Shown here: in pieces, positions 1,846-38,131 of the stretch
Layout of the letters: every line of letters starts with the position of its first letter
How positions within the stretch are numbered: position 1 is the stretch's first letter
Source: Aequitasia blattaphilus
GTDB lineage: Bacteria; Bacillota; Clostridia; Lachnospirales; Lachnospiraceae
Assembly: GCF_024721305.1 (NCBI RefSeq)
Contig: NZ_JAMXOD010000001.1
Location: 223,830-287,829, forward strand
Reading direction: 5' to 3'
DNA: 64,000 nucleotides
Notes under the pieces: generated by a model
What the model saw: the letters and a program-made list of their open reading frames with translations, nothing else
Told to the model about the DNA's origin: nothing
Databases searched by the model: none
Translations under genes and position numbers: made by a program

Positions 1846-2788
1846 TCAGTTTGCAAAAGAGGTAGAAGAAAGGTTACAGGCGCATTTTGAAACCAATGGG
1901 CTAGATGTTCAGGTTCAACTAAATAGCGTTCTAAAAGTAAATGATGTTAATCGCCAAGGTATCATTATTAAACCAGAAGATAGTAAGGTGGCGCCGATTA
2001 TCTACTTAGAAGAATTTTATGAAGACGTTCAAGACGGTAGCAAAGATATGGACAGGGTTATTGATGAACTTGTGGGCATCTATGAAGAGAACCGTGCTAT
2101 GCGCGGACAGATCCACCTCGAGAATATCTTCTCCTTTAATCAGATCAAGAATGAACTTACTCTTTGCGTAGTCAACACGGCCAAGAATCAGGAGATGTTA
2201 AATGAAATCCCTTATGTGGAAATGGATGATTTATCAGCCTTTTGTAGAATCCCTATGATAAATAGTGAAGAGCAGCGGGGATTTATGAAGGTTACCTATG
2301 AACTACTAGATGCTTGGAACGTGGACTTTAACGAAGTCTATGACATGGCTATTTCCAATACCCATAACTTTAATGACTTTCGACTATATAGCATGGAAGA
2401 CATTATTGGTGAAATGATGGGAAACGGAGCACCCCAAAACCTGCTTAATAAAGAGATGCACGAGAATGAGGGCATGTTTGTCTTAACCAATGAACCGAAA
2501 GTAAATGGCGCCACAGCGCTATTACGTCCAGACATTATGGAACAGGTTTCGGCAGTACTAGGCGGGGATTATTACATTTTACCTTCGTCCTTGCATGAAA
2601 CGATTTGTATCCGTAAAGAAGGAGCACCACCAGCGGCCGAGCTAGGTGAAATGGTGCGGGAAATTAATGCGACTCAAGTAGACGTGGAGGATCGCTTAAG
2701 CGATCATATCTATGCCTACGATAGTAGGGAAAAGAAGCTTCATTCAGTAAGAGAATCCTTCTTACCACTAAAAGAACACAGCTTATAA
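1838..2788 (+). CDS. DUF5688-family protein
   Basis: A 316-residue soluble acidic protein with no signal peptide or membrane segment. Its opening (FNQFAKEVEERLQ), the IIYLEEFYED block and the later VLGGDYYILPSSLHE segment fit the DUF5688 family, which is common in conjugative elements of gut Clostridia and has no known function. The start at 1838 has GGGGGAAAGAAGC upstream and overlaps the preceding small ORF by 8 bases. A hairpin follows directly, so it may end one transcription unit. Position between the coupling protein and the PcfB-like gene suggests an accessory role in transfer or element biology; this is inference from context only. Confidence 0.7.
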   Translation: MFNQFAKEVEERLQAHFETNGLDVQVQLNSVLKVNDVNRQGIIIKPEDSKVAPIIYLEEFYEDVQDGSKDMDRVIDELVGIYEENRAMRGQIHLENIFSFNQIKNELTLCVVNTAKNQEMLNEIPYVEMDDLSAFCRIPMINSEEQRGFMKVTYELLDAWNVDFNEVYDMAISNTHNFNDFRLYSMEDIIGEMMGNGAPQNLLNKEMHENEGMFVLTNEPKVNGATALLRPDIMEQVSAVLGGDYYILPSSLHETICIRKEGAPPAAELGEMVREINATQVDVEDRLSDHIYAYDSREKKLHSVRESFLPLKEHSL

Positions 2789-2794
2789 AGAGAG

Positions 2795-2826
2795 GCCCGG
2801 GAGCTTGGATGCTTCCGGGCTTATTT
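2795..2826 (+). terminator. Hairpin after DUF5688 gene
   Basis: GCCCGGGAGC and GCTTCCGGGC form a 10-bp stem with one G-T wobble around a 6-nt loop, followed by TTATTT. The T-tract is weak, so this may be a partial terminator or an mRNA-stabilising hairpin between two conjugation genes. Confidence 0.6.
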
Positions 2827-2855
2827 AGTGATGAAAAAGAAAGGAGCAAAGAGCA

Positions 2856-4046
2856 ATGAGTGATGTAAGCGATACCATGCAGATTGTAAGTCTTGCAGGG
2901 CATGGAGCCTTCATTTTAGGAAAAGTAAGTGTAGAAGTCATTCAGTTTTTCATGCGGCTGGCACTGACCAAGCGCCAACAAAACATGCGCTTAAAGTATG
3001 GGGAAATGACTTTAGATAAGCTAATGGAAAAGCAAGCCCTAATGGGAGACCAAGCGGTAGTGTTTCAGGTAAAGGTAACAAATGAAAAAGAACTAAGTAG
3101 CGTAAAAGAAGAACTGACCAAGAGAGGAATTACCTTTTCCCAGCTATTTGACTTTAATTTAGAGGATAATTTCACTCAGTTTTACAGCAGTGCCTCCGAT
3201 AGCCCGAAGCTAAACGCCTACTTTAAAGCCCATGAAGAGTTAATGGCCGGGGCCATCAAGATGGAAGACTACTTTAAGTCGGCACCGGAGAAGGATAAGC
3301 AGGCAATTAAGGAAGAGGTAGCAAAACATTTAAATACTAAAAAAAAGTCCAATGTGCCGACAGCCCTTAAGTACCTTGTTAAGCAGGAAGAGTATGTGAA
3401 AAACCAGGAGCTAGAAGAACGTTTTGCCCATCTCTTGTTTAAGCATCCGAAAGAAGAAGGACATCTGATTGCGATTCCCAGTGATGAGGTTATAAATCAG
3501 GGAGAGGACTTTTTGCTTTTACTAGAGCCTACCGACGAATATCCGATTTTATCTAAAGAGGGACAGATACTTGAACGTAGACTAGGGAAGGATATTTATC
3601 TGGCATTTGAGCGAGAAGAATTCTTGCAGCTAGAAAAGCTATCACCAGAAGAACGAAGAGACCTTGCGGAAGCCAAACGACTAAAAGTGGCAGAGCTTTA
3701 TCAAGCAGAGCGGAAGAAAGAAGGCGCCTTTGAAGTTTCTTTTCCTGTCCGTGACCGAGTAAGCGAGACCGCTTATAGCCTCGAGTTTCTAGTACCAGGA
3801 AGAGGGGAGCGCACAACCATGGAGCTACCAAAGGACCGGCTAAAGAAAAGTAAAGACGGGAAATTCTATCAGGCGGTTTTAAATCGCGAGGAATTATTAG
3901 ACGTACGTGTCTTAGGGTACCCAGTTGAAGCATACGGAAAAGATATGGAAGAACATTTTGAACTATTAGGAACGGAAACAGGAATAGGAGAGAAAATAAC
4001 TGTCAAAGAAAGGAGAAGTCATGAAAGAACTAGAAGTAGTAAATGA
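2856..4046 (+). CDS. PcfB/DUF3801-like conjugation protein
   Basis: A 396-residue protein whose N-terminal ~160 residues fit the PcfB/DUF3801 family (LAGHGAFILGK, AxLTKRQQNMRLKYGEM, MEDYFKSAPEKDKQAI). PcfB of plasmid pCF10 is an accessory factor found next to the VirD4-like protein PcfC, which agrees with the coupling protein upstream here. The remaining ~230 residues are longer than PcfB and highly charged; I recognise no domain in them. A good site (AAAGGAGC) precedes the ATG at 2856. Probable role: binding relaxosome or coupling protein during DNA processing. The family call is good, the role of the C-terminal extension unknown. Confidence 0.75.
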   Translation: MSDVSDTMQIVSLAGHGAFILGKVSVEVIQFFMRLALTKRQQNMRLKYGEMTLDKLMEKQALMGDQAVVFQVKVTNEKELSSVKEELTKRGITFSQLFDFNLEDNFTQFYSSASDSPKLNAYFKAHEELMAGAIKMEDYFKSAPEKDKQAIKEEVAKHLNTKKKSNVPTALKYLVKQEEYVKNQELEERFAHLLFKHPKEEGHLIAIPSDEVINQGEDFLLLLEPTDEYPILSKEGQILERRLGKDIYLAFEREEFLQLEKLSPEERRDLAEAKRLKVAELYQAERKKEGAFEVSFPVRDRVSETAYSLEFLVPGRGERTTMELPKDRLKKSKDGKFYQAVLNREELLDVRVLGYPVEAYGKDMEEHFELLGTETGIGEKITVKERRSHERTRSSK

Positions 4047-19439: not shown

Positions 19440-20645
19440 GAATGAAGTTTAGCATAAATAAAGAGGCGGGAAAAGAACATCATGTATGAACAAGTTTTGT
19501 AGTCATAACCTTTTCATAATAGTCTTGTAAAGAGAAGCGCTTGTGATTATAGTACAGTTCGACAAAAATCATTGTTTTGCCGCAATTAGGACATTTTAAG
19601 GGATCGTAACCGAAAGTAGAGAGAATGGATTCGCGCCACTTATTAAAAGCAAGTAGGAAGAAATGCTTCTCGGTTGGAATGGCACGGAATAGCTTTTTAT
19701 CCTTTTCTCTATGTCTCGCATAGATACCATAGTAACGTATCATCTTGTATTGTTTTTCAGGGATGTGTCTTATAAGTCGAGAAATGAAGTCGGTTGCAGG
19801 AACAGTTTCGTGAACAAGTTTTTCGTTTTCGTGTCGATTGTAATGGAAGGTTACATTATCACCGTCGTAATCGTCGATACGAGAAGTGGCTATAGCGGGC
19901 CGTCCAAGATATCGACCGATATATTTAATGACAATATCTGGATTACATTTATTAGACTCAGCATAAACATAAAAGCCGTCTTTGTGTATCAAGTAATTCT
20001 TATTGATTTCGGATTTGAATGAAGGTCCAATGTGAGAAAGCATTGCCTTAAGTAAAGCGGTGCGAAAGGATTTTCGCAAAAATTCATAGCTAAAATAATG
20101 GACTTTACGCCAGGGAATATTGTTGCCGGTGCCCCCTTCTGAAAGAAGGCAGTGAATATGTGGATTCCACTTTAAATCTCTACCAAATGTATGAAGAACA
20201 CAAATAAAACCGGGTGTAAATTCTTCTGTTTTATTAAGCTTGCGAAACAACCGAAGAATAACACTTTTAACGGCAAAAAAGAGACAATCAAGAAGCGTGC
20301 GATCATCAAGAAAATAATGCCGAAGTTCTTCAGCAATGGTGAATACGAGATGCCGATGGCTGCACTTAATAAGTTTGAAAGACATAGACGTGGTGCGATC
20401 AATGGAGTACATATTCCCACAAGAAGGACAGAATCGACTTTTACAGCGAAAAGGGACAAATTTCCATTCGCCACAGTCGCAATGATACATAGCCCCGCCA
20501 AAGGAAGGGTCACCACAATTAAGCATCTTCTCGATATTTTCTAGTTCAACCGGACGAGGATGCATAGAGTATTTTATGATTTCGAAATAGTCATTGAAAA
20601 TACGCTGTAATATATTCATATGACTATTATGAGATAAATTGAAGC
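19440..20645 (-). mobile_element. IS91-like (HUH, rolling-circle) insertion sequence
   Basis: A single transposase gene abuts truncated oppC: oppC-like codons continue only to about 20643, after which the sequence changes to the transposase region. This places the right junction near 20640-20655. The left junction is not defined, because IS91-type elements make no target duplication and have no long inverted repeats. The boundaries are estimates. Confidence 0.7.
19480..20619 (-). CDS. IS91-family transposase with N-terminal zinc-binding domain
   Basis: A 379-residue transposase. The N-terminal zinc ribbon is visible (HCDCGEW, then RFCPSCGN), followed by the HUH nuclease core with NPHIHCLL as the paired-histidine motif and YIGRYLGRPAIA carrying the catalytic tyrosine region. 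A second Cys pair near the C-terminus (KCPNCGKTM) is usual for the family. IS91 elements transpose as single strands by rolling-circle replication and can mobilise flanking genes. The start at 20619 is provisional: no good ribosome site is visible and the frame stays open into oppC sequence at 20664. Confidence 0.85.
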   Translation of the reverse strand: MNILQRIFNDYFEIIKYSMHPRPVELENIEKMLNCGDPSFGGAMYHCDCGEWKFVPFRCKSRFCPSCGNMYSIDRTTSMSFKLIKCSHRHLVFTIAEELRHYFLDDRTLLDCLFFAVKSVILRLFRKLNKTEEFTPGFICVLHTFGRDLKWNPHIHCLLSEGGTGNNIPWRKVHYFSYEFLRKSFRTALLKAMLSHIGPSFKSEINKNYLIHKDGFYVYAESNKCNPDIVIKYIGRYLGRPAIATSRIDDYDGDNVTFHYNRHENEKLVHETVPATDFISRLIRHIPEKQYKMIRYYGIYARHREKDKKLFRAIPTEKHFFLLAFNKWRESILSTFGYDPLKCPNCGKTMIFVELYYNHKRFSLQDYYEKVMTTKLVHT

Positions 20646-20663
20646 AAAAGAAATCCCGGTGCA

Positions 20664-21452
20664 ATGTTTGGCTTGTTTTTTGTAATTGCGTTACTTATTT
20701 TATCGTTATTATCACCTTATATATGTAGATACGGTTACCAAGAAATCGTGATGAAAGATCGCTTTTCGCTTCCAAGCTGGAATCATTTATTAGGCTGTGA
20801 TGAAGTAGGTCGGGATATTCTTTCACGCATTTTATTTGGGGCAAAATACACCTTGAGTATCGGAATATTATCTGTAGCACTTAGTTGTGTTGCAGGGGTG
20901 ATATTAGGCTCTATTTCGGGTTATTTTGGCGGAGTTGTAGATACACTAATCATGCGTTTTTTAGACGTATTTCAAGCTTTTCCCAACATACTATTAGCAA
21001 TTGCGATATCAGCAGTATTAGGAACCGGATTTGATAAAGTTATATATGCAATTGGTATTAGCGGAATTCCTAATTTTGCACGAATGATGCGTGCGAATAT
21101 ATTAACGGTGCGTAATGCTGAATTTGTTGAAGCGGCTACGTCAATTAATTGTTCGACATTTAGGATTATTCGTAATCATGTTATTCCGAATGCGATTTCA
21201 CCATTGATTGTTCAAGTCGCTATGGGTATTGCAAGTTCGGCCTTAGCAGCATCTGGGTTGAGTTTTTTAGGATTTGGTGTACAAGCACCAACGCCGGAGT
21301 GGGGTGCGATGTTGGCTTCAGCTCGTGGTTATATGCGCGATTATCCCCACATGGTTATCATTCCGGGGCTATTTATTATGTTGACAGTTTTAAGCTTTAA
21401 TTTAGTAGGGGATTCTATACGTGACGCATTAGATCCAAAGCTCAGGGATTAG
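20664..21452 (+). CDS. oppC: Peptide ABC transporter permease, OppC/DppC type, 5' end lost
   Basis: A 262-residue inner-membrane permease with the binding-protein-dependent transport domain and the EAA loop (EAATSINCSTFRIIRNHVIPN, ~154-174; contact site for the ATPases). Six hydrophobic segments are present, including the first (FGLFFVIALLILSLLSPY). Homologues have 20-40 extra cytoplasmic residues in front; here in-frame codons reading SKRNPGA extend only to 20643 before a stop, so the IS91-like insertion removed the native start. No ribosome site precedes the ATG at 20664, so expression is doubtful although most of the protein survives. oppA and oppB are absent from the window. Confidence 0.8.
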   Translation: MFGLFFVIALLILSLLSPYICRYGYQEIVMKDRFSLPSWNHLLGCDEVGRDILSRILFGAKYTLSIGILSVALSCVAGVILGSISGYFGGVVDTLIMRFLDVFQAFPNILLAIAISAVLGTGFDKVIYAIGISGIPNFARMMRANILTVRNAEFVEAATSINCSTFRIIRNHVIPNAISPLIVQVAMGIASSALAASGLSFLGFGVQAPTPEWGAMLASARGYMRDYPHMVIIPGLFIMLTVLSFNLVGDSIRDALDPKLRD

Positions 21453-21464
21453 GAGGAAATGGAA

Positions 21465-22448
21465 ATGGTAAAGAAGGAAAGTAAACATAATTTTTTCTCA
21501 GTTCGTGACTTACGTGTAGAGTATGCCTCAGGGCAAGAAGTGATTCACGCGGTTAATGGTGTGTCATTTGAACTAGAGTCTGGAACAACGATAGGGCTAG
21601 TTGGTGAAACAGGCGCAGGCAAAACGTCTATAGCTCGTGCGATTATGAGAATTTTACCTGACTACGCAACGAAAAGTGTTAGCGGAAAAGTTGACTTTAA
21701 AGCGGAAGAGTTATTAGAGTTACCAGAGAGTGAAATGCGACTTTTGCGTGGAAAAAGCATTTCGATGATATTTCAGGATCCAATGACAGCGTTAAATCCA
21801 GTGAAAAAGGTAGTAGATCAAATAGCTGAAGGAGTTAGGTTACATCAGAATACAAGTAAGCGGGAGTCGATAGAGATAGCGATTAAAATGTTGGAAATGG
21901 TGGGAATTTCTGAGGACCGTGCATATGAGTATCCTCATCAGTTCTCAGGTGGAATGAAGCAAAGAGTGGTAATTGCGATAGCTCTAGCCTGTAATCCCGA
22001 AATACTCATAGCAGACGAACCAACGACAGCTCTAGATGTAACTATTCAAGCTCAGGTTTTGGAGCTGATGAAAGAATTAAAAGAGAAACTGGGAACGGCT
22101 ATGATTCTTATTACCCATGATTTAGGAGTGGTGGCCGAGGTGTGTGATACGGTTGCGGTTGTGTACGCAGGCGAACTAGTGGAATATGGGACAAAGGAAA
22201 GAGTTTTTGATAAACCTTCTCATCCGTATACGCAAGGACTTTTTAATGCATTGCCAGACTTATCAAAGAATGTAAAAAGACTTACACCGATTGAAGGCTT
22301 GCCGCCCGATCCAAGTAATTTGCCTAAAGGGTGTGCGTTTGCATCTAGATGTCCATTTGTAACTGAAGAGTGCAAAAAGGACAAAATCGATATGATAAAA
22401 ATAAGTGAGAACCATCAGGTTCGCTGTATTAGGTGTGAGGAGGAATAG
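21465..22448 (+). CDS. oppD: Peptide ABC transporter ATPase OppD/DppD
   Basis: A 327-residue ATPase with Walker A GETGAGKTS (~46-54), signature FSGGMKQR, Walker B ILIADEPTTALD and the oligopeptide/dipeptide C-terminal extension containing cysteines (GCAFASRCPF). OppD and OppF form the heterodimeric motor of a peptide importer. AGGAGG at 21451-21456 fits the ATG at 21465 (8 bases) better than the one at 21459. It follows oppC by 12 bases and ends 1 base before oppF. Confidence 0.9.
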   Translation: MVKKESKHNFFSVRDLRVEYASGQEVIHAVNGVSFELESGTTIGLVGETGAGKTSIARAIMRILPDYATKSVSGKVDFKAEELLELPESEMRLLRGKSISMIFQDPMTALNPVKKVVDQIAEGVRLHQNTSKRESIEIAIKMLEMVGISEDRAYEYPHQFSGGMKQRVVIAIALACNPEILIADEPTTALDVTIQAQVLELMKELKEKLGTAMILITHDLGVVAEVCDTVAVVYAGELVEYGTKERVFDKPSHPYTQGLFNALPDLSKNVKRLTPIEGLPPDPSNLPKGCAFASRCPFVTEECKKDKIDMIKISENHQVRCIRCEEE

Positions 22449-22449
22449 A

Positions 22450-23394
22450 ATGCCACTTTTAGAAATCGAACATTTAAAAAAATATTTTTCGACGCCGCGA
22501 GGCTTGGTTCATGCAGTTGATGATGTTTCCTTTTCCATTAATAAAGGTGAAACCATGGGCTTAGTGGGAGAGTCAGGATGTGGAAAATCGACTTTAGGCC
22601 GCACGATAATACACTTGCAAGAAAGTACAGGCGGGATTATTAAGTTTGAAGATAAAGACGTAACAAATTTAGGAAAAGAAGGACTGAGAAAGCTTCGTGA
22701 AGATATGCAAATAATCTTTCAAGATCCGTACTCTTCCTTGAATCCTCGACTTACAATTCATGATACTATCGTGGAACCCTTAATGCTATCTAAGCGATTT
22801 GATTCAAAGGGACTTGAGGCAGAAGCAAATAGACTTATGGATTTAGTCGGGATTGAACAACGCTTTAGAATGTCATACCCCCATGAGTTAGATGGAGGGC
22901 GAAGACAAAGAGCAGGTATTGCTAGAGCAATTGCATTAAACCCTAAATTTATTGTTTGTGATGAGCCGGTTTCGGCCTTGGATGTGTCTATACAAGCGCA
23001 AATATTAAACCTATTAATGGATTTACAAGAGGAATATGGGTTGACATACTTGTTTGTAACTCATGATCTATCGGTTGTACGCCATATTTCAACAAATATT
23101 TGTGTAATGTATCTTGGACAGATGGTTGAGACCTGTCCAACAAAGGAATTATTTGATAATCCTTTACACCCATATACAAAGGCTTTGTTGTCGGCTATCC
23201 CGACAGTTGATATACGCCATAAGCAGGAAAGAATTATTCTAAAAGGAGAAATCAATTCTCCCATCAATCCCAAACCCGGGTGTAGGTTTGCACTTAGATG
23301 TCCGTATGCGGAAGCGCAATGTAATGAACCAGTGGTGTTGCGTGAGATTAGTGAAGGACATTTTTGTTCTTGCTGTAGAATTAATGAAATATAA
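22450..23394 (+). CDS. oppF: Peptide ABC transporter ATPase OppF/DppF
   Basis: A 314-residue ATPase: Walker A GESGCGKST, Walker B FIVCDEPVSALD and the C-terminal oligopeptide domain (GCRFALRCPY). The signature motif reads LDGGRRQR instead of LSGGQxQR, with Asp in place of the Ser that contacts ATP gamma-phosphate; some OppF/DppF-like proteins vary here and the partner OppD has a normal SGG. The start at 22450 has GAGGAGG directly upstream, while the longer frame to 22405 overlaps oppD. The operon ends here with palindromes downstream. Without the binding protein and OppB it needs partners from elsewhere. Confidence 0.9.
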   Translation: MPLLEIEHLKKYFSTPRGLVHAVDDVSFSINKGETMGLVGESGCGKSTLGRTIIHLQESTGGIIKFEDKDVTNLGKEGLRKLREDMQIIFQDPYSSLNPRLTIHDTIVEPLMLSKRFDSKGLEAEANRLMDLVGIEQRFRMSYPHELDGGRRQRAGIARAIALNPKFIVCDEPVSALDVSIQAQILNLLMDLQEEYGLTYLFVTHDLSVVRHISTNICVMYLGQMVETCPTKELFDNPLHPYTKALLSAIPTVDIRHKQERIILKGEINSPINPKPGCRFALRCPYAEAQCNEPVVLREISEGHFCSCCRINEI

Positions 23395-23400
23395 TTATCT

Positions 23401-23436
23401 TTGATAACGTTATCAAATCTAGATAAAATGTTATCT
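23401..23436. repeat. Two adjacent palindromes after oppF
   Basis: TTGATAACGTTATCAA (23401-23416) is a perfect 16-bp palindrome, followed by AGATAAAATGTTATCT (stem of 6, loop of 4). They share a GATAA/TTATC core. They may be a weak terminator or binding sites for an element-encoded protein. Confidence 0.5.
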
Positions 23437-23747
23437 AAACTGAAAAATCATGAAAATTTGCAAAAAAGTGCGTTGCGTGAAGGGTAGTTTATTTATGCGC
23501 TGTAATCGTTAGTTAAAAGTAGTTATAATTATGGGATACTGAATGACTAAAACATGATTTTGAGACGCAGCCTTAGAAAGTATATATTTCTAATATAGGT
23601 TATGAGAGGGGTAGTGTTTTTCGGAAAACGTAGGCAAGACGTGCACGCAACTACTGCAAAAAACCTTATTTCAACTATAATTTTTGTCGATATTACATAT
23701 AGGGAGTCCCATATGAATGGAACCTTGACAATTATATAAATCATTCA
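23437..23747. other. Intergenic leader region, no gene seen
   Basis: No coding frame with a ribosome site is found on either strand. Small hairpins are present: TTAGAAA/TTTCTAA near 23575, CATAT-GGG/CCC-ATATG at 23696-23715, and ATGAATG/CATTCAT at 23713-23748. A TATAAT at 23676-23681 has only a poor -35; it could start the structured RNA that follows. Confidence 0.4.
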
Positions 23748-24066
23748 TCAAGTACGTTCCTGTAATTATTGCTTTAAGCATAAGCCATTTAGCGCTACGC
23801 CATGACAGAGTTTGTGTTTTGACGTATTAGCATGACAGACGGTAGAACTTTTGAGCGATACATAGTTTGCTATTAATCCGAATGACTTTCGGGCGGCGAT
23901 GACAGATTACGGGTATAATGATACTTCCGTTCAGGTAAGGTAGGGCAGTGCATAACTTAACTTACCCAGACGGCTTCCGGAGGTCCCGGGAGAGACGTTA
24001 GTCTATGAGGCGGGTTCGTCGTCTGTCGCTTGATGAATCCAGTTTGCTAGGGGCGAGGCAAATAAG
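23748..24066 (+). ncRNA. Structured RNA, copy A (HEARO/omega-RNA-like)
   Basis: This stretch aligns with 24699-25026 through conserved blocks in the same order: AGCATAAGCCAT (23777), CGCCATGAC (23798), CGGCGATGACAG (23894), GATACTTCCGTT (23920-23931), a CCGGAGRTCCCGG hairpin and CAAATAAG (24059). Between the blocks sequences differ but stems are kept: CCGAA/TTCGG (23878-23892), CCGT+GGTAAG/CTTACC+ACGG (23927-23973), CTTCCGG/CCGGGAG (23974-23992), AGAC/GTCT (23993-24004). A U-G pair makes the plus strand the RNA. From memory the closing GAUG...GGGG...CAAAU part resembles HEARO/omega RNAs of IscB/IsrB, but no nuclease gene is nearby. A terminator follows at 24138. Confidence 0.6.
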
Positions 24067-24137
24067 CAAAGAGTTTGATATACACGATAAAAGTAAAACG
24101 TAATGCATGAATAGTCATATTTGATTTAGGAGAAGAA

Positions 24138-24169
24138 AGAGATCATTGAAAACTGATGGTCTCTTTTTT
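24138..24169 (+). terminator. Terminator after RNA copy A
   Basis: AGAGATCAT pairs with ATGGTCTCT (one T-G pair) around a 9-nt loop, followed by TTTTT. It lies between the RNA and the XRE gene, so the RNA probably ends here as its own transcript. Confidence 0.75.
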
Positions 24170-24192
24170 GTGAAAACATTTAGGGGGGAGAA

Positions 24193-24564
24193 ATGAAAAA
24201 GAACATCGGAGTACGAATTAAGCATTATCGAATGACTAAAAAAGTATCACAAGAGCAATTAGCAGAATTAACGGATTTATCAGTTTCATTTATTTCCAAA
24301 GTAGAAACGAATCGTGTATCAATAGGCTTAAATGCAATCATCAAAATTGCGAATGCATTAGAAGTCCCTATAGGGGATTTGCTTGAGCAAAAAAGTGTTG
24401 AAGAGAGTGAACATAATATTTCAAAAATCGCAGCAACTCAAGAAGTCTTAAATAAAATTGTTAAAAAGCTTTCTAGGTGTGAGAAAACGATGCTACATAT
24501 TATTGAAGATGTCATTGAGGCGATGATTACATCCATTAATAATCACAGAGACGAACAATGGTAA
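24193..24564 (+). CDS. XRE-family regulator in the integrase module
   Basis: A 123-residue protein with an N-terminal helix-turn-helix (VSQEQLAELTDLSVSFISKVE, in the first 35 residues; one residue per base position unbroken) and a helical C-terminus likely used for dimerisation. AGGGGGGAG gives a strong site. It lies between the two structured RNAs and upstream of xis and int, so it could control excision, the RNAs, or both. An ATTTCTTTCA/TGAAAGAAAT hairpin (24591-24617) follows its stop. Confidence 0.8.
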   Translation: MKKNIGVRIKHYRMTKKVSQEQLAELTDLSVSFISKVETNRVSIGLNAIIKIANALEVPIGDLLEQKSVEESEHNISKIAATQEVLNKIVKKLSRCEKTMLHIIEDVIEAMITSINNHRDEQW

Positions 24565-24698
24565 ATTGAAATTTTTGTTACCAAAAGTGGATTTCTTTCA
24601 GTATATGTGAAAGAAATAGGTGAAATCTTTCAGTTCTTCTCCATGTTCATATTATCAATATCTCGATAAAATGAATATAAGAACTGAATAGACAAGCG

Positions 24699-25026
24699 TC
24701 AAATACATTCCTACTGCTTTTGCGATGAGCATAAGCCATAAGAGTTGGTTGCGCCATGACCACGAGAATTGTATCACAGAGAAACGTGAAAGCGATAAAA
24801 CAACAACTCTTAGTACTAGGTGGCTCCTAGATACCGGCGATGACAGGTGGTAGGGATAATGATACTTCCGTTTCGTCATAGCCCGTGCGTTAAAAGCGTC
24901 CCCGGTAATGAAAGCGGCTGCCGGAGATCCCGGCAGGATGAAGAAATAGATTTCTTCTCATGGTGCAAAGCTAGCCCTTTGCCGTTTGATGGCTTCCCGA
25001 CTACTGGGGTGTTGAGAACAAATAAG
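24699..25026 (+). ncRNA. Structured RNA, copy B (HEARO/omega-RNA-like)
   Basis: Second copy of the RNA at 23748. Conserved blocks: AGCATAAGCCAT (24728), CGCCATGAC (24752), CGGCGATGACAG (24835), GATACTTCCGTT (24861-24872), CAAATAAG (25019). Stems with different sequence at matching positions: CTAGG/CCTAG (24816-24830), CTGCCGG/CCGGCAG (24918-24936), GAAGAAAT/ATTTCTTC (24940-24957), GCAAAG/CTTTGC (24965-24982), plus a long-range AAGAGTTG-GTTG/CAACAACTCTT pairing (24740-24751 with 24801-24811). A long imperfect hairpin (24631-24686: CAGTTCTT, TTCAT, TTATC with their complements) sits just upstream and may be part of the transcript. No IscB/IsrB gene follows; the next gene is xis. Confidence 0.6.
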
Positions 25027-25041
25027 TATTGAAAATATAAA

Positions 25042-25085
25042 GTCAAGTGTGCAAAGGAATAATCCAGTACCTTTGCACATTTGAC
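25042..25085 (+). terminator. Long hairpin between RNA copy B and xis
   Basis: GTCAAGTGTGCAAAGG and CCTTTGCACATTTGAC form a 16-bp stem with one G-U pair and a 12-nt loop. There is no T-run after it, so it may be a terminator or RNA end of non-standard form, or a control element ahead of xis-int. Confidence 0.5.
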
Positions 25086-25172
25086 AGTTAGAAATAACCT
25101 TTTGCTATCTTTTAAATGTTTTTAGAAGATATTAAAGGGTTGTTTTTTTTCAGAGAAGGGAGGGGCTTTAAA

Positions 25173-25397
25173 ATGATGAATATGAAGGTGAGGGATAATG
25201 AAAAAAACGTTCCCCTTTGGGAGAAGTTCAATTTAACGATAACCGAAGCAGCAGAGTATTTTAATATTGGAGAAAAGAAGCTAAGGAAGCTTACAGATGA
25301 TAATTTAGATTGTGGATTTGCGATTTATAACGGAACAAAAGTATTGATTAATCGTAAAAAATTCGAAGAGTTTCTCAATCAAATATCCAGTATTTAA
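25173..25397 (+). CDS. xis: Excisionase-like protein (Tn916 Xis type)
   Basis: A 74-residue DNA-binding protein. LTITEAAEYFNIGEKKLRKLTDD, allowing for the break at 20 residues, is a winged-helix MerR/excisionase core, and the ending IYNGTKVLINRKKFEEFL matches Tn916 Xis. Xis bends the element ends and tips the integrase toward excision. GGGAGGGG sits about 7 bases before the ATG at 25173; the frame continues upstream to 25116 without need. It lies 89 bases before int. Confidence 0.8.
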   Translation: MMNMKVRDNEKNVPLWEKFNLTITEAAEYFNIGEKKLRKLTDDNLDCGFAIYNGTKVLINRKKFEEFLNQISSI

Positions 25398-25486
25398 GTG
25401 GGTTACATGTTTGGACGGGAGCTGAGAATGTGATATAGTATTTATATCGCACTAAGGCTTTCTTGAAACAGAAGGGAGCGATAGAA

Positions 25487-26683
25487 ATGAGTGAAAAGAG
25501 ACGAGATAATAAAAATCGAATTTTACGAAATGGAGAAAGCCAAAGGAATGATGGAAGGTATGTATATGTATACGTAGATGGTAATGGAAACCAGAAGTTC
25601 TTGTATAGTTGGAAGCTTGAGCCAAATGATACACTGCCTAGTGGGAAGCGAGATTGTGTGTGCTTAAGAGATAAAATAAAACTTTTAAAAAAGGATCAAG
25701 CAGACGGTATTATTGCAAATGCAGGAAAAATGACTGTTTTGCAGTTGGTCGAGAAATACATAAGTCAAAAAACTGGCGTTAGACATAACACGGAAGCTAA
25801 TTATCGATTTGTCATCAACATTATCAAGAAGGAAGAATTTGGAAGTAGACGAATTGATAGTATCAAGCTTTCAGATGCCAAAGCTTGGCTGATCAAATTG
25901 CAGGCTGACGGAAGAGGATATAGTACAATCCATACGGTAAGAGGTGTGGTCAGACCGGCTTTTCAACTTGCTACAGATGATGATCTTATTCGCAAGAATC
26001 CTTTTGAGTTTCAATTAGCCACGGTTGTGGTAAATGATAGTGTGACAAGGGAAGCGATAACAAGAGATCAAGAACGAAAGCTTCTGAAATTTATAAAAAA
26101 TGATAAGCATTTTTCTAGATATTATGATGGTATATATGTCCTATTTAAGACAGGTGTACGTATTTCTGAATTTTGTGGCTTGATTGCTGAAGATATAGAC
26201 TTTGAAAATCAAAAACTTCGTATTAACCGTCAGTTACAGCGAACGCGGAATATGCAATACATAATTGAATCCCCGAAGACAGCTAACGGTGAAAGATATG
26301 TTCCCATGGATAAAAAATTGATGAAATGCTTTAAGAGAATCTTGAAGAATCGGAAGTCGGTAAAGGTAGAACCGGTGATAGACGGAATTCATGGCTTCCT
26401 GTTTTTGGATAAAAATGGCATGCCGATGGTTGCCTTGCATTGGGAAAAGTATTTCGAACATATATATCATAAATATAATAAGACCTATAAGGAAGAGATG
26501 CCCAAAGTTACACCTCATGTGTGCCGGCACACGTTTTGCTCTAATAAAGCGAAAAGTGGTATGAATCCGAAGACGTTACAGTATATAATGGGACATGGAG
26601 ATATCGGGGTTACCCTTAATACGTATACGCATGTAGACTTTGAAGATGCTAAGAAAGAAATGAAACGGTTGAAAGAGGCTTAA
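25487..26683 (+). CDS. int: Tyrosine integrase, Tn916 family
   Basis: A 398-residue tyrosine recombinase. The N-terminal arm-binding domain opens MSEKRRDNKNRILRNGESQ and contains SWKLEPNDTLPSGKRDC, closely like Tn916 Int. Then follow the SAM-like core-binding domain (~75-160) and the catalytic domain with Arg in KTGVRISEFCG, HVCRHTF, MGHGDIGVT and the nucleophile Tyr in TLNTYTHVDF. It catalyses excision and insertion of the element with little site specificity if it behaves like Tn916. GGGAGCGATAGAA gives the start at 25487; the frame upstream is not needed. Apparently intact. Confidence 0.95.
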   Translation: MSEKRRDNKNRILRNGESQRNDGRYVYVYVDGNGNQKFLYSWKLEPNDTLPSGKRDCVCLRDKIKLLKKDQADGIIANAGKMTVLQLVEKYISQKTGVRHNTEANYRFVINIIKKEEFGSRRIDSIKLSDAKAWLIKLQADGRGYSTIHTVRGVVRPAFQLATDDDLIRKNPFEFQLATVVVNDSVTREAITRDQERKLLKFIKNDKHFSRYYDGIYVLFKTGVRISEFCGLIAEDIDFENQKLRINRQLQRTRNMQYIIESPKTANGERYVPMDKKLMKCFKRILKNRKSVKVEPVIDGIHGFLFLDKNGMPMVALHWEKYFEHIYHKYNKTYKEEMPKVTPHVCRHTFCSNKAKSGMNPKTLQYIMGHGDIGVTLNTYTHVDFEDAKKEMKRLKEA

Positions 26684-26690
26684 AATTGCG

Positions 26691-26780
26691 ATTAGTAAAT
26701 TGACAAAAAGAGGGTTGTTTTACTAATTATTTTACTAATTTTGCAGGCAAAGATATGCCAATTTAAGCAAAGATATGCCA
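26691..26780. repeat. Clustered short repeats at the element's right end
   Basis: Immediately after int, TTTTACTAATT occurs twice (26718-26728, 26730-26740) with an inverted copy ATTAGTAAA at 26691, and GCAAAGATATGCCA occurs twice 20 bases apart (26747, 26767). Spacing and position suit integrase or excisionase arm sites near the transposon terminus. Nothing else is seen up to the next gene at 26869. Confidence 0.6.
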
Positions 26781-26868
26781 CCAAAACCAGAAAAACAAGG
26801 ATAAAGGCAAGCGTCAACAAACCGCGTAAATACGGGGAAAGTCAGTAAAATCAAGGAGAATAGGAAAG

Positions 26869-27315
26869 ATGAAAAAAATATTATTTATCTGCCACGGCAA
26901 CATATGTCGCTCACCAATGGCAGAATTTGTTCTAAAAGACATGGTAAAAAAAGAAGGAAAAGAAGCGGAGTTTTTTATAGCATCAGCAGCAACCAGCCGA
27001 GAGGAAATAGGAAATCCACCTCATCCTGGTACCAGAAGAATCTTAAGCCAGCATGGAATTGATACAAAAGGAAAACAAGCAACGCAGCTAACCAGAGCAG
27101 ACTACGATAAATATGATTTGCTGATAGGAATGGATCATTACAATATTCGAAACATGGAACGTATAACAGGTGGTGACCCTGAGGGAAAAATCCATTTACT
27201 CCTATCCTTTGCCGGAGAAGATAAAGATATTGCAGACCCTTGGTATACGAACAAATTCGATGCCACCTACCGAGATGTCGTAAAGGGATGTAAAAGCTTG
27301 TTGGAAAAAATATAG
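26869..27315 (+). CDS. Low-molecular-weight protein tyrosine phosphatase
   Basis: A 148-residue phosphatase with the P-loop Cys8-HGNIC-Arg14-Ser and the general-acid motif DPWYT (~122-126). These enzymes dephosphorylate tyrosine kinases of capsule synthesis or other proteins, or arsenate in related families; Ser after the Arg and the DPWY motif favour the phosphatase. It is the first chromosomal gene after the element, with AAGGAGAATAGGAA before its ATG, so its original promoter may have been replaced by element sequence. A hairpin follows. Confidence 0.88.
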   Translation: MKKILFICHGNICRSPMAEFVLKDMVKKEGKEAEFFIASAATSREEIGNPPHPGTRRILSQHGIDTKGKQATQLTRADYDKYDLLIGMDHYNIRNMERITGGDPEGKIHLLLSFAGEDKDIADPWYTNKFDATYRDVVKGCKSLLEKI

Positions 27316-38031: not shown

Positions 38032-38131
38032 CCTTTTATTAAGAGCAGTGGAGACGAAGGATCTGTGAAACTGCGGCAACCCCCATTAAGTGGTAGGTGC
38101 TCACCTGAGCGAGTAATCGAACAATAAAAGG
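38032..38131 (+). promoter_or_regulatory. SAM-I riboswitch (S-box) aptamer
   Basis: The S-box core is clear: TTATTAAGAGCAGTGGAGA, then CTGTGAAACTGCGGCAACC, and the GTGGTAGGTGC...GAGC stem region. P1 is formed by CCTTTTATT (38032-38040) and AATAAAAGG (38123-38131), a perfect 9-bp helix. The P1 3' strand (AAAAGGA) can instead pair with TCCTTTT of the terminator. Binding of S-adenosylmethionine would free the terminator and switch off metK. Confidence 0.92.

Follow-up and report, generated by a model that had tools for sequence, protein, structure and literature searches.

What do two copies of a structured RNA do beside the integrase gene of an ICE? The question arises in the genome of Aequitasia blattaphilus, where a 64,000-nucleotide stretch of DNA (hereafter, the window) carries two colinear copies on the plus strand, A at positions 23748-24066 and B at 24699-25026. 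An earlier note, made from the sequence alone, had read them as a structured RNA under selection, next to an ICE integrase, and this reading is now supported by matches of both copies to the Rfam family RF02913 and by blocks and helices that are common to its relatives.

Two diverged copies of a known RNA family

The likeness between A and B is far beyond chance, as expected from the previous description of two ~320-nt copies with conserved blocks in the same order. Blastn aligned a 38-nt block at 84% identity (E 1e-8) and a 41-nt block at 73% (E 0.004), and a repeat search returned the same two block pairs (23748/24699 and 23894/24835). The local alignment of the two colinear copies scores 89, compared with a mean of 22.3 (sd 3.1, maximum 36) over 500 two-base-block shuffles of B. 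The three stems said to differ in sequence between the copies while keeping their pairing are all present, namely CCGAA/TTCGG at 23878-23892 in A versus CTAGG/CCTAG at 24816-24830 in B (hairpin P4), CTTCCGG/CCGGGAG at 23969-23992 versus CTGCCGG/CCGGCAG at 24912-24936, and AGAC/GTCT at 23993-24008 versus GAAGAAAT/ATTTCTTC at 24940-24957. That such changes amount to covariation, which the earlier note had also claimed, is not establishable from two copies alone; covariation is shown by 96 family loci for a further helix, P1, described below. An ORF with a ribosome site was found in neither copy, again as noted before: A contains no listed ORF of at least 60 aa, and the two ORFs that overlap B (24655-24879 on the minus strand and 24847-25032 on the plus strand) have no evident site by eye.

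When scanned with the Rfam covariance models, both copies matched RF02913, "pemK RNA", with scores above the gathering threshold of 34.8: A at 23915-24008 with 41.5 bits and B at 24856-24963 with 41.7 bits, both on the plus strand and both beginning with AUAAUGAUACUUCCG. The family, typed as Cis-reg in Rfam, reportedly originates from Weinberg 2017. Matches to it (E <= 0.001) were present in 121 of the 391 sampled genomes of the class to which the window belongs (Clostridia, as judged from named relatives), 120 of them over the cut-off, and in none of 14 control genomes. A strict motif identified 13 stretches in viral contigs, five of which reach the RF02913 gathering score. One viral contig, L217, was seen to hold an RT-14 RNA and a type-P5 twister ribozyme. 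The dinG family (RF03082), which has the same AAUGAUACUUC start as A and B in the same place, stayed below its gathering score of 46.9 in the window (24.4 and 18.1 bits, overlapping the place of RF02913 in a scan of 23500-25200) and is rarer than RF02913, with matches in 3 of 299 genomes of the phylum. A SAM riboswitch was also found in the window, at 38033-38130 (61.9 bits).

In the literature covered by a search that did not extend to Weinberg 2017, RF02913 appears in lists and test sets with no stated function: it is counted in Rfam 15 among the families with improved base pairs (PMC11701678), listed in a paper on structure (PMC7657543) and used as a test set in a paper on finding contaminants (PMC11507696), and pemK is named in a figure legend among RNAs near defence genes (PMC11061315).

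The 5′ domain, helix P1 and the boxA-like site

The Rfam model comprises 61 positions, whereas the conserved unit in relatives extends over ~300 nt, and the model lacks both a 5′ domain and the helix P1 that A and B have. The family set comprised 100 regions round mostly best-scoring RF02913 matches, additional loci and the two window copies, which a motif filter reduced to 107 loci and the removal of near-duplicates to 99; with three named elements the set came to 102, of which 99 had enough flank (loci L003-L036 were inspected but not counted apart). With one base shuffle per flank as the control, GCGCCAUGACC was found 5′ of the core in 68 of the 99 loci (6 of 99 shuffled flanks), GCGAGCGAUAA in 55 (4 of 99) and, directly 5′ of the core, GCGAUGAC in 58 (1 of 99), and GAGRACAAAUA was found 3′ of the core in 21 (2 of 99); these shares do not give rates for the family as a whole, because the loci are mostly best-scoring ones and the motifs were picked after viewing relatives. 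Conserved blocks lie at 23797-23806 (ACGCCAUGAC) and 23853-23860 (GAGCGAUA) in A and at 24751-24761 (GCGCCAUGACC) and 24789-24798 (AAAGCGAUAA) in B, which also has a conserved 3′ end, CUGGGGUGUUGAGAACAAAUA, at 25004-25024. A covariance model of the 5′ domain alone, R1, built from 30 relatives with the window copies and the Rfam core left out, found B in its exact place (24703-24855) with an E-value of 4.6e-4 in 160 kb searched; it also found A in its exact place (23752-23914), at an E of only 0.4, and the conserved blocks are seen in A. At locus L172 (G025:C1:2910490), a boxA-like site precedes ACGCCAAGACC and GGGCGAGCG blocks that resemble the arrangement of the 5′ domain; this is possibly a distant relative of the domain, with no R1 match at E up to 10.

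P1 is a long-range, strongly covarying helix, in which the bases directly 3′ of [AG]UAC[AG]UU pair with those directly 5′ of AUAAUGAUAC, the two being roughly 90-230 nt apart. Strands of the same locus pair at a mean of -10.7 kcal/mol, compared with -4.7 when the 5′ strand is taken from other loci, and the locus's own pair is in the top 5% at 63 of 96 loci. This test was anchored on the loose UAC[AG]UU motif, which is not clearly commoner than in shuffles (52 versus 47 of 99 loci) and was kept as an anchor only; an unanchored version (24 of 99 in the top 5%) was dropped as too noisy. The strands are CCUGUAAU (23759-23766, directly 3′ of GUACGUU) and AUUACGGG (23906-23913) in A, CCUACUGCU (24710-24718, directly 3′ of AUACAUU) and AGGUGGUAGG (24845-24854) in B, and CGAUAAGAA and UUCUUAUCG in Tn916. 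For A and for B alike, the copy's own 5′ strand is equalled in pairing by 3 of 95 foreign ones. Two local helices are less strongly supported than P1 by chimera tests, in which the own pair was in the top 5% at 26 of 62 loci for P3 and at 22 of 86 for P4; in the P4 test B ranks first and A is missed at rank 50, though its hairpin is present. For P5 and P6, in the Rfam part, the corresponding values were 6 and 9 of 80, the anchors being probably poor, and RNAalifold found almost no structure in a MAFFT alignment.

A boxA-like site lies 5′ of the core in 61 of 99 loci but in only 1 of 99 shuffled flanks, the remaining 38 loci having none by the criterion used. Among eight rrn leader or spacer stretches from four genomes, five hold a similar site that no more than 3 of 100 shuffles equal, two have a poor site and one is without; these sites were found by the loose search only, exact rrn-boxA matching having given no exact match beside 16S genes (0 of 26). 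In Tn916 the boxA shows zero substitutions, whereas in A it is poor (CCTTGACAATTATATA at 23723-23738, three substitutions from YTTTGAMAAYTGAATA) and in B degenerate (ATATAAGAACTGAATA at 24675-24690, four substitutions by hand count, with the core TTTGA lost), so that no good boxA is present in B. In one genome (G222), about 15 of 17 matches, at L171 and further loci, are copies of one repeated stretch with AAGTTGCTCTTTGAAAACTGAACATC, an rrn-like boxA, perhaps located near one end of an insertion element.

The link to canT of Tn916

According to the portions of the canT study covered here, canT is an RNA between orf8 and xis of Tn916 with which RNA polymerase passes both the element's own and foreign terminators; it acts in cis, in one orientation only and processively, and Tn916 conjugation requires it (PMC11658703, PLoS Genet 2024). 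Two alleles are inactive: canT(S3), in which ATA at base 283 after the orf8 stop is changed to TGC, and canT(delta162), which concerns nt 229-390; within a canT fragment of 400 bp, however, the S3 change made little or no difference (PMC11658703), and the AUA is hence dispensable in some contexts. In the same portions, the authors describe the interpretation of activity from predicted structures as complicated and do not take sequence and structure further; the main text contains none of the words pemK, Rfam, NusB and covariation (PMC11658703).

We found that the orf8-xis stretch of the Tn916-like element of pCF10, whose Xis is identical to the query peptide, matches RF02913 with 55 bits. Base 283 after the orf8 stop of this element is ATA, the first base of the match. 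The S3 change alters the first three bases of the AUAAUGAUAC block of the family, that is, positions 1-3 of the RF02913 match, and the delta162 deletion spans the match; the same block stands at 23915 in A and at 24856 in B. Matches of 68.9 and 57.8 bits were obtained for a tndX element and a vanB element, which we take from their gene order to be of the Tn5397 and Tn1549 types, respectively. The link between canT and RF02913 looks new: no published one was found in a search that was without the conAn paper (NAR 2021) and Weinberg 2017, which is not proof.

Since the canT region matches RF02913 and the S3 allele falls within the AUAAUGAUAC block, we consider it probable (roughly 80%) that A and B belong to the canT type of Tn916, leader RNAs that bring about antitermination in cis, with RF02913 as their 3′ core. 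Counting against this reading are the poor boxA of A and the degenerate one of B, the S3 result in the 400-bp fragment, the high R1 E-value of A and, as given below, the family-wide terminator counts, the lack of a clear excess of promoter-like sites and the low share of Int relatives with the RNA. Like Tn916 canT, the two copies have the RF02913 core, the blocks of the 5′ domain and the P1 helix; B, moreover, lies 5′ of Tn916-type xis and int at the right end of the ICE, and the ICE has a terminator at its left end. Tn916 differs in having one canT, after orf7-orf8, whereas in the window ICE two copies flank the XRE gene, each with its own terminator. Antitermination has been demonstrated for Tn916 canT only; for A and B we infer it from shared sequence, structure and place. 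The copies would be new members, an antiterminator RNA of the canT kind being already known.

Other RNAs act in a comparable way. The conAn2 RNA of pLS20 is likewise large, brings about antitermination and stands at the start of a conjugation operon, but the conAn system, unlike canT, also needs a protein (PMC8955417 and PMC11658703, in the portions covered), and the EAR and put RNAs are named as cis-acting RNA antiterminators as well (PMC11658703). Homology to conAn2 was considered and dropped: pLS20 1900-3600, the inferred place of conAn2, contains no RF02913 match, and its best R1 score is 7.1 bits. In two Tn916-like elements, an SQ2397 RNA (RF03532, 230 bits) was observed at L166 2657-2886 and L167 2872-2643, adjoining an HTH regulator upstream of a sigma-like gene.

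The ICE, its terminators and the rival explanations

Copy B lies just upstream of xis (25173-25397, plus strand; Pfam Tn916-Xis, PF09035, 77.7 bits) and of the gene for a Tn916-type tyrosine integrase (25487-26683, plus strand; PF02920 and PF00589), whereas the gene after A, at 24193-24564 on the plus strand, encodes an XRE-type HTH regulator (HTH_3 by Pfam) and not Xis or Int. Over 6,414 bases (20487-26900), the region agrees in every base with a contig of Ohessyouella blattaphilus (L218), which suggests recent transfer. The L218 version of the junction is absent from the window's own genome (at <=3 mismatches only the window's own junction was found), so L218 represents another genome. The identity stops at 26901, within the opening codons of the gene for a low-molecular-weight phosphatase (LMW-PTP), and this break marks attR (region 26869-26900). 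The same LMW-PTP gene start is found on that side, by a loose motif, in 68 of 80 related integrase loci. A similar start, MIKILMVCHG as translated by eye, at G000:C1:203512 is read as a putative attL, which would make the ICE about 47 kb long (47,185 bases with this attL). A direct repeat of 13 nt around B, with one mismatch, was dropped as an att candidate in favour of the LMW-PTP site from the L218 comparison. At G000:C1:201490 and 203512 there are two successive LMW-PTP-like starts that share a palindromic flank, as though elements had accumulated at a single attachment site.

The ICE encodes ParA, RepA_N, a TraG-P-loop ATPase, taken for a VirB4-like protein, a lysozyme/CHAP protein and a TraG/VirD4-like coupling protein, with an M24 peptidase, a peptide transporter and HsdM as cargo; given this gene content, the ICE looks complete, and the RNAs stand at its right end. 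The RNA lies directly upstream in only 12 of 63 relatives of the window Int (strict motif, 1.5 kb flank), among which two copies are found by this motif only in L218. R1, run over 76 of the 80 related integrase loci, matched 12 times at E <= 1, and one of 13 scanned motif-negative loci has an RF02913 match.

The terminator previously reported after A was recovered as a hairpin at 24139-24169 on the plus strand, between A and the XRE gene (-16.9 kcal/mol, z -4.3). B, too, is followed by an intrinsic terminator of its own, omitted from the earlier note, at 25096-25150 on the plus strand ahead of xis (z -6.7), and by a strong hairpin at 25042-25085 on the same strand (z -8.1), with 16-nt arms that form a 94% complementary inverted repeat. 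A further terminator at the left end of the ICE before parA, near G000:C1:204110 (z -5.2), occupies the same place as T1 in Tn916. A scan of the whole ICE for hairpins with T-runs returned 32 on the plus and 21 on the minus strand, most of which lie within ORFs and a good part of which are probably due to chance, and promoter-like sites in the region were in no clear excess (18, compared with 13.2, sd 3.2, in shuffles).

A terminator behind both window copies, together with the Cis-reg type assigned by Rfam, is what might also be expected of a ligand- or protein-sensing attenuator, in which, as in a riboswitch, two alternative folds decide the fate of the next terminator. However, the terminators begin 73 nt (A) and 70 nt (B) past the end of the RNA and lie clear of its helices, and no strand is therefore seen to be shared. 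Nor is there an enrichment of terminators behind the RNA across the family: a family-wide rule of this kind was dropped, with terminators counted in sense orientation at 21 and in antisense at 22 of 59 loci, a count that left out 32 short-gap loci and 11 of 102 sequences without a called ORF. The terminators behind the RNA are thus a feature of the window ICE and not of the family. An automatic terminator scan missed the window terminators, probably because their stems run into the T run.

The first genes downstream are diverse as well. The 91 ORFs called, on the sense strand only and classed by simple motifs, include 11 PemK/MazF, 6 ParA, 6 Xis, 6 HTH, 2 serine and 3 tyrosine recombinases, 16 small ICE ORFs and 41 others, some of which look PemK- or Xis-like. 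Such diversity is easier to reconcile with a general effect on transcription than with a sensor for one pathway. The longest downstream ORF is co-oriented with the RNA in 81 of 87 loci, which is weak evidence because the longest upstream one is mostly co-oriented too (77 of 93). With canT, moreover, being processive and effective on foreign terminators (PMC11658703, in the portions covered), an attenuator appears unlikely.

Still less probable is a trans-acting or guide RNA (HEARO/OMEGA, TnpB reRNA or retron) merely parked beside the integrase. A large structured RNA on a mobile element would be in keeping with it, as would the figure legend that places pemK among RNAs near defence genes (PMC11061315). 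Yet HEARO, ROOL and GOLLD, the families suggested at first, gave no match in the Rfam scans (the window at gathering scores, 23500-25200 at E up to 5), in which no family of the trans-acting or guide kind appeared at the window copies, and Pfam scans of 12 window proteins, six of them from around the RNAs, showed no TnpB, IscB or reverse transcriptase. Conjugative elements do contain structured ssDNA sites, and covarying helices cannot separate RNA from ssDNA. A DNA element that acts as a single strand (single-strand origin, oriT or att arm) and is only RNA-like in look is nonetheless the least probable explanation, very unlikely given that the oriT of Tn916 is located by orf21, away from canT, and that a plain reporter shows canT activity for just one of the two orientations (PMC11658703, in the portions covered).

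If A and B are canT-type leaders, RNA polymerase transcribing either of them would be modified in cis by the folded RNA, perhaps, as a guess, with NusB-S10 bound at the boxA-like site, and would then ignore the intrinsic terminators downstream. From A, transcription would reach the XRE regulator past its terminator and, from B, xis and int; in the circular ICE, transcription from B would continue through attP and the terminator at the left end and so enter parA and the genes for conjugation. Any stray transcript made without passing a leader would end at the terminators. More tentatively, and with slightly less than even odds in our estimate, RF02913 may form the core of a single widespread class of mobile-element RNAs that act as processive antiterminators and mimic the rRNA leader, with an rrn-type boxA recruiting NusB-S10 and a 5′ domain, closed by P1, holding RNA polymerase. 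The window ICE would then carry two such RNAs in series as separate gates, one for the regulator and the other for excision and post-circularisation conjugation.

These results propose a testable function for RF02913, so far a motif in the literature covered, extend its unit from 61 to ~300 nt with a covarying long-range helix and tie it to its one bench-studied member, canT of Tn916, while the comparative helices name base pairs worth testing. Should the members of this RNA class all act in the same way, such control would extend to mobile elements in roughly one third (121 of 391) of the genomes sampled from the window's class.
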